Source of the DNA: Alkalicella caledoniensis
GTDB taxonomy: Bacteria > Bacillota > Proteinivoracia > Proteinivoracales > Proteinivoracaceae
Assembly (NCBI RefSeq): GCF_014467015.1
Contig: NZ_CP058559.1
Location: forward strand, 3,472,001 to 3,536,000
Reading direction: 5' to 3'
Length of the DNA: 64,000 nt
The notes below the pieces were generated by a model. That model did not search any database, was not told where the DNA came from, and saw nothing but the letters and a program-made list of their open reading frames with translations. How positions within the stretch are numbered: position 1 is the first letter of the stretch; the number at the start of each line of letters is the position of its first letter. Both the position numbers and the translations under genes were made by a program. This document shows positions 6,153-13,800 of this stretch, one piece after another.

Positions 6153-7775
6153 ATGAACTTAAACGTGATAGATGGAAACTTGCTCAAAGAGTTGTTAATA
6201 GCAGGTGGCCATTCATTAGGCATGCATAAATCTGAAGTTGACAGCCTCAATGTTTTTCCAGTGCCCGATGGGGATACTGGTACTAATATGAACCTTACAA
6301 TGACATCTGCTGTCAACGAAGTTAAAAAAGTTACAGACAATAAAGCTAGCAGTATGGTAAAGGCTTTATCCTTAGGTTCTCTTATGGGTGCAAGGGGAAA
6401 CTCAGGTGTAATCTTATCCCAGCTATTCAGAGGATTTTCTAAGGTTTTAGAAAAAAAAGATACTTTTACACCAGTAGACTTTGCAAATGGTCTAAATGAG
6501 GGTGTTAAAACTGCATATAAGGCTGTTCTCAAGCCTGTAGAGGGGACTATTTTAACTGTATCTAAGGGGGCTGCAAAGGCAGCACTTATAGAGGCACAAA
6601 AGGGTGGTAACCTAGTAGAAGTTATTGAGAAAGCTCTAGAACAGGGTGAAAAGACCCTTAAGCAAACACCGGAAATGCTTCCTGTACTAAAACAAGCGGG
6701 AGTAGTTGATGCAGGTGGTAAAGGATTATTAGTGATTTACGAAGGTTGGCTTAAATATCTTAAAGGTGAAGAGATTACCTATACTAAAACTGATGAGAAC
6801 TTTGAAAGCTTTGTGGATGAACATCCAACTGACCCTAAGGATATTGAGTTTGCGTATTGCACTGAATTTATAATAACAGGTAATAACTTAGATCCTGACA
6901 AAGTAAGGGATGATTTAATTAAGTTTGGACTAAGTGATTCACTTCTTTCTGTGGGTACAGATGAAATGGTCAAGGTACATGTTCATACAAATAATCCAGG
7001 TAAGGCCCTTGAATATGGTGTTGGTTTAGGAAATCTTCAGGGAATAAAAATAGACAATATGCTTATTCAAAGTGAAAACTTTGGTAAAGATAAAGAAGAG
7101 ATAAAAGGTCCACAAAAAGATGTTGGAGTTGTGGCCGTGGCGTCAGGTGAAGGACTTAAAAATATCATGATGAGCATGGGAGTAGATCATGTGATAGAAG
7201 GTGGACAGACAATGAACCCTTCCACCGAAGATTTCTTGAAAGCTATTGAAAAGGTGAACGCAAAAAGTATAATATTATTACCAAATAACAGTAACATTAT
7301 TTTAGCCGCTGAACAGGCTGAAAAAATTGCCCCTATACCTGTGAAGGTAGTTAGGAGCAAAACTATTCCTCAGGGTATTGCGGCACTTTTAAACTATCAA
7401 AGTGAGGGTATTGATCTTGAACAACTACACTCAGTTATGCAAGATGCAATTTCTTCCGTTAAATCAGGTCAAGTTACTTTCGCTGTTCGTGATTCTAAGT
7501 ATGATAATCTAGATATAAAAGAAGGTAACATTTTAGGTATAGCTGAAAACAAAATAGAGGTTATAGGTGAAAATGTTACTGACACTACCCTTGAACTTTT
7601 AGAAAAACTTATTAATGATGATAGTGAAATAGTTACTTTATTTAGTGGTGTAGAAGTAACTACAGAACAAGGTGAGCAACTAGTAGAAATAATTTCAGAA
7701 AAATTTGATCATGTAGAAGTTGAACTTCATTCTGGCGGTCAGCCACTTTACTACTACCTCATTTCTGTAGAATAA
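6153..7775 (+). CDS. fakA: Fatty acid kinase subunit FakA (YloV)
   Basis: A 540-residue DhaL/DAK2-type kinase. With a DegV-type fatty-acid-binding partner (FakB) it phosphorylates exogenous fatty acids to acyl phosphates for PlsX/PlsY. The N-terminal DhaL domain (about 1-200) shows the metal-nucleotide motif PVPDGDTGTNM (residues 37-46) and ARGNSGVILSQ. The middle and C-terminal parts are the usual FakA-specific domains. Length is normal. A DegV gene begins 23 bases downstream, an evident partner. Start: ATG at 6153 after AGAGGAGG. Confidence 0.93.
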   Translation: MNLNVIDGNLLKELLIAGGHSLGMHKSEVDSLNVFPVPDGDTGTNMNLTMTSAVNEVKKVTDNKASSMVKALSLGSLMGARGNSGVILSQLFRGFSKVLEKKDTFTPVDFANGLNEGVKTAYKAVLKPVEGTILTVSKGAAKAALIEAQKGGNLVEVIEKALEQGEKTLKQTPEMLPVLKQAGVVDAGGKGLLVIYEGWLKYLKGEEITYTKTDENFESFVDEHPTDPKDIEFAYCTEFIITGNNLDPDKVRDDLIKFGLSDSLLSVGTDEMVKVHVHTNNPGKALEYGVGLGNLQGIKIDNMLIQSENFGKDKEEIKGPQKDVGVVAVASGEGLKNIMMSMGVDHVIEGGQTMNPSTEDFLKAIEKVNAKSIILLPNNSNIILAAEQAEKIAPIPVKVVRSKTIPQGIAALLNYQSEGIDLEQLHSVMQDAISSVKSGQVTFAVRDSKYDNLDIKEGNILGIAENKIEVIGENVTDTTLELLEKLINDDSEIVTLFSGVEVTTEQGEQLVEIISEKFDHVEVELHSGGQPLYYYLISVE

Positions 7776-12386: not shown

Positions 12387-12611
12387 ATGGCAAGACGTAG
12401 TAGACGTAATAGACGCACTGTGGTTCCTCAAGCTGAGCAGGTACTAGATCGCTACAAATACGAAGTTGCTTCTGAATTAGGTTTAGCTAACCAAATTCAA
12501 ACTGGTGGGTGGAACAACCTTACTACCAGAGAAGTAGGTCAAATCGGTGGTCAAATGGTTAAAAGAATGATTCAAGACGCTGAACAACAACTTCAAGGTA
12601 AAAAATTCTAA
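12387..12611 (+). CDS. Alpha/beta-type small acid-soluble spore protein
   Basis: A 74-residue SASP that coats spore DNA and protects it from UV and chemicals. Both conserved helices are visible: YKYEVASELGL near residues 25-35 and the GQIGGQMVKRMI block near 54-65. The EVASEL stretch corresponds to the site cut by the germination protease GPR. The N terminus is unusually arginine-rich (MARRSRRNRR). Start: ATG at 12387 after AAAGGAGGTG. A second SASP gene follows 54 bases later. Confidence 0.95.
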   Translation: MARRSRRNRRTVVPQAEQVLDRYKYEVASELGLANQIQTGGWNNLTTREVGQIGGQMVKRMIQDAEQQLQGKKF

Positions 12612-12665
12612 TTTAAGCTAATTTAAATTAAAGAAATATAATAAACAATAGGAGGTGCCTAAATA

Positions 12666-12929
12666 GTGGATACTATTAACAATGCTAACCAAACTGAAAG
12701 ACAACAAGGTTTCTCTGAGCAACAAATATTAGTTCCTCAAGCTGAGCAAGCTCTAGATAACCTAAAAAATGAAATCGCTTCTGAGCTTGGATTAACCCAA
12801 AAAATCCAATCTGTTGGTTATGCCAACATGTCTCCTTATGAAGTAGGTCAAATTGGTGGTCAAATGGTTAAGAGAATGATCGAGATGGTTGAATCTCAAA
12901 TGGCTAACACCAATAACCCACAAAGATAA
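12666..12929 (+). CDS. Alpha/beta-type small acid-soluble spore protein
   Basis: An 87-residue paralogue of the preceding SASP. It retains the LKNEIASELGL and GQIGGQMVKRMI blocks but has an acidic and glutamine-rich N terminus instead of the arginine-rich one. GTG at 12666 after AGGAGGTG is the start. No separate forespore promoter is obvious, so it may be co-transcribed with the first gene. A terminator follows. Confidence 0.94.
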   Translation: MDTINNANQTERQQGFSEQQILVPQAEQALDNLKNEIASELGLTQKIQSVGYANMSPYEVGQIGGQMVKRMIEMVESQMANTNNPQR

Positions 12930-12953
12930 CAACAAAATATAAAAAACCATATA

Positions 12954-12989
12954 AATCAAAGGATGCTTTTCGAAGCATCCTTTTTGATT
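12954..12989 (+). terminator. Terminator after the SASP pair
   Basis: AATCAAAGGATGCTT and AAGCATCCTTTTTGATT form a nearly perfect stem with a TTCG loop and a T-rich 3' arm. Confidence 0.88.
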
Positions 12990-13010
12990 ATTTAATTAAT
13001 ATAAAAAAAT

Positions 13011-13134
13011 ACCGGCGGTGGGGGCCGCCGGTCTGGGAGAGGAGAAACCGGAGGAAGAGTTATGGGGAAATGGTTAATTTTTTGCTGCAAAGATTGGTGT
13101 GTTTGGGGATTGAATCCTTGCTGCATCTCCGGTT
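13011..13134 (+). ncRNA. Candidate structured RNA, strand and ends uncertain
   Basis: A G+C-rich island in an AT-rich intergenic region. A perfect 8-bp hairpin (13011-13018 with 13025-13032) has a G-rich loop. A second perfect 8-bp pairing, AACCGGAG (13046-13053) with CTCCGGTT (13127-13134), would close a domain of about 90 bases. No open reading frame with a ribosome-binding site is present. No promoter or terminator is clear on either side. I cannot place it in a known RNA family by eye; the strand is assigned from the neighbouring genes only. Confidence 0.45.
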
Positions 13135-13202
13135 CATTATATATCTTGTCTAATATTTGAGATTTTATACAAAAAAATATAAAAAATTGCTAAATGACCA
13201 AT

Positions 13203-13231
13203 TTGCTGGTAAAGTACTATTATGTTAAAAT
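13203..13231 (+). promoter_or_regulatory. Promoter of rsmD-coaD
   Basis: TTGCTG (13203-13208) and TAAAAT (13226-13231) with a 17-base spacer, 27 bases before the rsmD start codon. Confidence 0.6.
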
Positions 13232-13257
13232 TACCAAGTAAGGTCAGGTGATGAAAA

Positions 13258-13800
13258 ATGCGTGTTATAGCTGGAGAAAAAAAAGGGTTTCCATTAAAAG
13301 CGCCCAAAGGAAGTAATACGAGACCAACCTCAGATAAAATCAAAGGTTCAATTTTTAATATGATTAGCAATAACATGAATTTTAATGGTAAAAAAGCCAT
13401 TGATTGTTTTGCAGGCAGTGGTGGCCTTGGAATCGAGTTTTTAAGTCGAGGTGGTGAATTTTGCTTATTTGTTGAGCAAAATAGTCAGTCTTATAAAACT
13501 ATACATGAAAACATAGAAAAGACCTCTTATGGCAATAAATCAAAATTAGTAAAAGGAAATGTTTTTTCCATATTAGATAATGAAAGGTTTGACTTATTTC
13601 TTATTGATCCACCTTATAATAAAGGTATTGCTCAAAGGACCATTGATATGGTAACAGATGAGGACTTATTAAATGAGGGCGGACTAATTGTTGTGGAAAC
13701 AGATTCTAAAGAATCCGTTAAATTTAGTGAGGATTACTTTGTACTTAAAGCAGAAAAGAGCTATGGGGACACCAAAATAACAATATTATCAAGGAGTTGA
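13258..13800 (+). CDS. rsmD: 16S rRNA (guanine(966)-N2)-methyltransferase
   Basis: A 180-residue SAM-dependent methyltransferase that modifies G966 (E. coli numbering) of 16S rRNA. SAM-binding [10 protein letters not shown] (49-58) and the catalytic DPPY (117-120) are present. [10 protein letters not shown] at the start is the family signature. It overlaps or abuts coaD, its usual partner (ylbH-ylbI in B. subtilis). Start: ATG at 13258 after AGGTCAGGTG. Confidence 0.94.

Follow-up and report, generated by a model that had tools for sequence, protein, structure and literature searches.

CsfG is a small RNA (sRNA) reportedly described in Bacillus subtilis by Marchais et al. in 2011. According to passages of PMC3574147, B. 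subtilis csfG lies between ylbG and ylbH, and a northern blot failed to detect the plus-strand "ylbH leader" but did detect an RNA from the reverse strand, which is CsfG. A plus-strand leader of rsmD (ylbH) is already refuted for B. subtilis. The same excerpts state that CsfG co-precipitates with B. subtilis Hfq, that its level is modestly lower in the absence of hfq, and that the Hfq-bound CsfG peak spans 136 nt. The available sections of PMC8216469 and PMC4409812 place CsfG under the control of sigma-F and sigma-G, and liken its C-rich regions to those of RoxS and FsrA.

What CsfG does is described inconsistently in these sources. In the text available from PMC8216469, PMC4409812 and PMC9147052 it has no known target, whereas PMC12456014, as excerpted, says that it regulates sporulation mRNAs and gives the 2011 paper as its source. 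Among the other excerpted papers, a B. licheniformis transcriptome includes CsfG (PMC3871023), PMC10267692 has it in its reference list alone, and PMC4342826 and PMC3766115 still enter it as the ylbH motif. The labels are also in conflict: CsfG is segment S547 in the available part of PMC8216469, whereas CsfG and S547 (a Bvs196 homolog) are separate in that of PMC9147052, and one of the two labels seems to be wrong.

Here, we analyzed a G+C island at positions 13011-13134 of the window (the whole stretch of 64,000 nucleotides from Alkalicella caledoniensis), which a sequence-only reading had proposed to be a structured RNA element. The island is as unusual as that reading held: the window has a G+C content of 0.35 and the island one of 0.53, a value equalled by 0.06% of 6388 stepped 124-base stretches of the window, and no open reading frame of at least 50 amino acids overlaps it. 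Positions 13011-13060 reach 70% G+C, with 1 of 12790 stepped 50-base stretches as high, a count that may include the island itself. The island and its core occur in a single copy in the genome. Phage and plasmid collections gave no match, and a mobile element was rejected as an explanation.

The Rfam search that had been suggested as a check, taken with the published northern blots, identified the element as an already described RNA, CsfG, rather than a novel one. Over this stretch the top match is to RF00516, the "ylbH leader", on the plus strand at 13001-13090 (48.7 bits, E 1.8e-9), which falls short of the gathering score of 50; in the whole window, the sole match at Rfam gathering scores is a TPP riboswitch at 2180-2288 on the plus strand (90.5 bits). 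The raiA motif, which is likewise a structured RNA of Firmicutes and had been raised as a possible identity, is not one of the 17 matches that Rfam gave for 12930-13260 at E<=10. The other matches (SpF39, Bp1_738, STnc100 and others) were set aside as they are below their cut-offs and lie over the SASP terminator or reflect chance. The window element shares its locus and sequence with RF00516, but Rfam models that family on the opposite strand as a cis-regulatory leader, whereas csfG of the window is a predicted minus-strand sRNA. Homology to CsfG and the assignment to the minus strand are, taken jointly, nearly certain. The island is thus a previously unannotated member of the already described CsfG sRNA, with a rearranged fold, and it was left unannotated here because the Rfam model lies on the opposite strand and the score is just below the cut-off. 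On the sequence evidence, it is likely to be csfG as a stand-alone sRNA gene, running on the minus strand from about 13135 to 13003 and divergent from rsmD. The promoter was used to place the 5' end (near 13135), and the terminator to place the 3' end. The features of the locus are as follows.

13166-13170, minus strand: -35-like GTATA of the predicted sigma-F/sigma-G-type csfG promoter, from sequence
13142-13148, minus strand: -10-like CAAGATA, 17 nt from the -35
13003-13135, minus strand: csfG, predicted sRNA of about 133 nt, from the RF00516 match on the opposite strand, the core and the minus-strand fold
13127-13135, minus strand: 5' arm of the long-range stem P1, GAACCGGAG, pairing with 13045-13053
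13083-13125, minus strand: internal hairpin P2, UGC-A-GCAAGGAUU ... AAUCUUUGC-A-GCA, in 5/5 family members
13064-13070, minus strand: UUUCCCC, the first of three C/U-rich stretches, invariant in 5/5 family members
13036-13059, minus strand: 24-nt core CUCUUCCUCCGGUUUCUCCUCUCC, comprising C/U-rich stretches two and three and the 3' arm of P1 (13045-13053)
13003-13032, minus strand: intrinsic terminator, an 8-bp G+C hairpin (13032-13011) followed by one A and a run of seven U
13258-13800, plus strand: divergent neighbor, an open reading frame that we take to be rsmD (ylbH) by homology
12387-12929: two tandem SASP-like genes, presumably of the alpha/beta type
12958-12983: terminator-like hairpin of the SASP genes, just before the csfG 3' end

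The predicted sRNA agrees with B. subtilis CsfG in its place beside rsmD (ylbH) on the reverse strand, in its C/U-rich stretches, and in having a sigma-F/G-type promoter, the P1 stem and a terminator. Both pairings noted in the sequence-only reading exist: 13011-13018 pairs perfectly with 13025-13032, and 13046-13053 pairs perfectly with 13127-13134. The first of these hairpins, read on the minus strand, is the intrinsic terminator of the sRNA. Across loci, the 130 nt on the 3' side of the core hold a terminator-like hairpin in 57/71 cases, compared with 4.9 in shuffles and 37/71 for the same stretches in the opposite reading. The second pairing is P1, which is closed by CUCCGGUUU within the core and whose 5' arm GAACCGGAG is invariant in 5/5 family sequences. 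The partner stretch of P1 is likewise paired in the Bacillales-type alignment. The three C/U-rich stretches, UUUCCCC, CUCUUCCUCC and UCUCCUCUCCC, are largely unpaired in the predicted fold, and the purine-rich "loops" that had been described on the plus strand turn out to be the complement of these stretches. UCCCCA is invariant in 36/36 Bacillales-type sequences.

Several lines of structural evidence distinguish between the two strands. The proposal of a structured RNA holds, but for the other strand: on the plus strand, where it had been read, the fold of the island is ordinary (z -1.5, with 19/200 shuffles equally good), whereas on the minus strand it is strong (z -5.7, 0/200). Among 58 sequences, the CsfG strand folds better in 43 and does not in 15 (mean z -4.9 vs -4.0). 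Within the family of the window, drift that destroys the pairings was not seen, as all 8/8 pairs of 13046-13053 with 13127-13134 are unchanged in the 5 family sequences, which also makes them uninformative on covariation. The predicted helices of the family contain three one-sided changes (two of them in P2), and 3/3 replace A-U by G-U when read on the minus strand; as plus-strand helices would be left with A-C mismatches by these changes, they support the minus strand. A strand-blind scan for stems across 58 sequences gives weak support in the same direction (G-U 75 vs A-C 56, flanks 171 vs 224; p 0.006, uncorrected for kinship).

The covariation that had been asked for is found in a Bacillales-type alignment (n=36), in which the homologous stem and a 5' hairpin covary. 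With the structure of a single member, L037, as reference, 94% of cells are paired, and both-side changes affect 8 pairs and 33 cells, compared with 3.4 and 9.5 in shuffles (0/500 as high) and 8-18 cells in slid versions of the same structure. The covariation is mainly within the 5' hairpin. Changes in this structure give G-U 68 times and A-C 4 times, or 32 vs 4 once an always-G-U pair (36 cells) is removed.

Transcription from the minus strand is also suggested by the upstream DNA. Sites were judged against the sigma-F and sigma-G consensus sequences. The promoter of the window, GTATA-N17-CAAGATA, scores 9.0, a score that about 7.6% of shuffled upstream stretches reach (5.38/71). A -35-like G[TA]ATA occurs at the same place in 5/5 family members, and the -10 is less canonical in the four relatives of the window. 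A sigma-F/G-type site is present on the CsfG strand in 60/70 core loci when scanned to the end of the stretch (58/70 in an earlier scan), whereas the reverse strand has one in 7/70 and dinucleotide shuffles give 5.4; L028 and L104 are too short for this test, and L145, with its core at the locus edge, was left out. Strict patterns find sigma-G sites in 18/70 loci (0.39 expected) and sigma-F sites in 14/70 (0.06 expected), with 0 on the reverse strand. Since the score was set after reading the upstream DNA of L002-L031, the cleaner test is that from L032 onward, and 38/44 named loci whose upstream DNA was unseen at scoring pass. The promoter is modest in the window alone, but strong across loci. 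On the plus strand, a sigma-G-like GAATC-N18-CATTATA in the 13110-13139 region points towards rsmD and scores equal to the minus-strand site. We rejected it as a promoter, as its -35 is lost in the 4 relatives; it is probably due to chance, because CATTATA overlaps the csfG start region.

How widely is the csfG core retained? It is exact in the window, in 4/4 family relatives and in many other genomes, and it occurs with up to 3 mismatches in 34/61 related genomes (reversed-pattern control 0/61) and in 95/199 genomes of the phylum (control 2/199). RF00516 itself matches 37/61 related genomes at E<=0.01 and exceeds its cut-off in 1/61, so that the Rfam threshold misses most copies; our results thus correct both strand and type for a family still entered as "ylbH leader" by annotation pipelines. 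At E<=1e-60, 174/199 genomes have a SigG-family match and 25 do not, five of the latter (G176, G181, G191, G194 and G203) being assigned by absence from the match table; such a match may be SigF or SigG, and the curated SigG cut-off is passed by 160/199. The core is present in 95/174 genomes with a SigG-like match and in 0/25 without (p 1.9e-8, uncorrected for kinship), and in the first set of 61 genomes, 0/7 below the SigG cut-off carry it. The csfG core is therefore restricted to genomes that encode forespore sigma factors, and it is missing, as searched with up to 3 mismatches, from 79/174 of those with a SigG-like match. A core that is near-invariant in 95/199 genomes and absent without SigG makes the function of CsfG easier to approach by comparative work.

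Around this core, the fold differs between clades. Bacillales-type CsfG has a 5' hairpin, followed by P1 extended by an inner helix, GAAGA.../...UCUUC. The family of the window has neither the 5' hairpin nor the inner helix, and instead carries P2 inside P1, a hairpin confined to this family among the sequences examined. Six clostridial sequences have GAAGAGCUU/AAGCUCUUC, which the family of the window also lacks. As the C/U-rich core stays constant while its folding partners are swapped, we infer that the core sequence is itself under selection, through something that it pairs with or binds.

Two accounts of the island other than an sRNA have to be weighed. It could be a plus-strand 5' leader of rsmD (a cis-regulator or orphan riboswitch), as Rfam types RF00516, in keeping with the fit of the Rfam model to the plus strand and with the position of the element upstream of rsmD in 65/73 loci. 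However, the plus-strand fold is no better than shuffles, U7 follows the hairpin on the minus strand only, and the promoter-like sites, G-U changes and covariation point to the minus strand; together with the B. subtilis northern, in which plus-strand RNA was not seen (PMC3574147, as excerpted), this makes a leader very improbable. Alternatively, there may be no RNA at all, and the island may be a G+C-rich repeat or a bidirectional terminator in the gap between the SASP genes and rsmD, where the SASP operon has a terminal hairpin of its own at 12958-12983. This is scarcely credible for an element with only one genomic copy, whose sequence, promoter, structure and place are all deeply conserved.

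For the minus-strand sRNA, promoter type and the B. subtilis literature lead us to propose that csfG would be transcribed in the forespore during sporulation, by sigma-F and then by sigma-G, and such forespore control is very likely. Folded CsfG would then expose its three C/U-rich stretches, UUUCCCC, CUCUUCCUCC and UCUCCUCUCCC, which could pair with the purine-rich ribosome-binding sites of mRNAs and thereby block translation or alter mRNA stability. It may do so with Hfq, whose gene is present in the genome of the window, in the manner of the C-rich regions of RoxS and FsrA. RoxS/RsaE and FsrA likewise combine unpaired C-rich stretches with a proposed pairing at ribosome-binding sites (PMC8216469 and PMC4409812, as excerpted), but their loci and regulators differ from those of CsfG, and we do not claim the likeness as homology. 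We slightly favor a role of CsfG as a forespore antisense RNA at ribosome-binding sites. Since the core is near-invariant, whatever CsfG pairs with should also be constant. A pattern search for a start-codon-linked complement gave hits in 2/5 family genomes at 4 unlike places, which is unconvincing, and among the 69 open reading frame starts of the window, none stands out as a target by duplex energy (best z -2.9), with the two SASP genes ranking 12th and 55th.

CsfG could instead meet something more general than a few mRNAs. As an anti-Shine-Dalgarno decoy, its core would imitate the way in which the 16S rRNA tail binds purines, and would damp the translation of many forespore mRNAs at a time rather than that of few targets; a C/U-rich core that is near-invariant across the phylum as its pairing partners change does suggest that it meets something constant, and its pairing energy with the 69 starts tracks the strength of the ribosome-binding site (r 0.44). 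Yet this uncontrolled correlation is one that any C/U-rich sequence should give, and specific long matches are possible beyond the window, so we regard the decoy as unlikely. We are just as doubtful of the wider picture, in which CsfG would be a general anti-Shine-Dalgarno element that shifts forespore translation and would rank, from Bacillus to deep clostridial lines, with the RNAs most widely retained in endospore-forming bacteria, with a near-frozen core and clade-swapped folding partners. It is more doubtful still that the constant core titrates an RNA-binding protein, be it Hfq or another. Usual Hfq sites are less extensively conserved than 24 nt, which speaks against such a protein-binding RNA, although Hfq is encoded in the genome of the window. 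The Hfq co-precipitation and the modest drop without hfq would fit protein binding, but Hfq is found with many RNAs in B. subtilis (PMC3574147, as excerpted).

The neighborhood of csfG is conserved to differing degrees. Our scan of 145 loci gave 73 core matches; the window is included as L004, its duplicate L001 was excluded, and L015 and L039, both 58017 in length, are apparently one contig, so that some counts take one genome twice. Upstream of the core and divergent from it, 65/73 loci have a match to the RsmD of the window, several others being cut by locus ends, and 52/73 have a match to CoaD. SASP-like genes follow csfG in 13/73 loci; in the window the two converge, because the terminator-like hairpin of the SASP genes sits just before the csfG 3' end. 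YlbG (DUF2129), encoded by the second neighbor of csfG in Bacillus, has no match in the genome of the window, and thus cannot be needed for CsfG in this lineage; a single sentence in the available part of PMC3814617 describes YlbG as possibly linked to CsfG. L037 (core at 7337, reverse strand) is the sole locus with an RsmD match downstream on the same strand, reflecting either an inversion or a different methylase. Two core copies occur in each of two genomes, G060 (C4:227414 and C18:244191) and G117 (C122 and C147), through either csfG duplication or assembly error or contamination.
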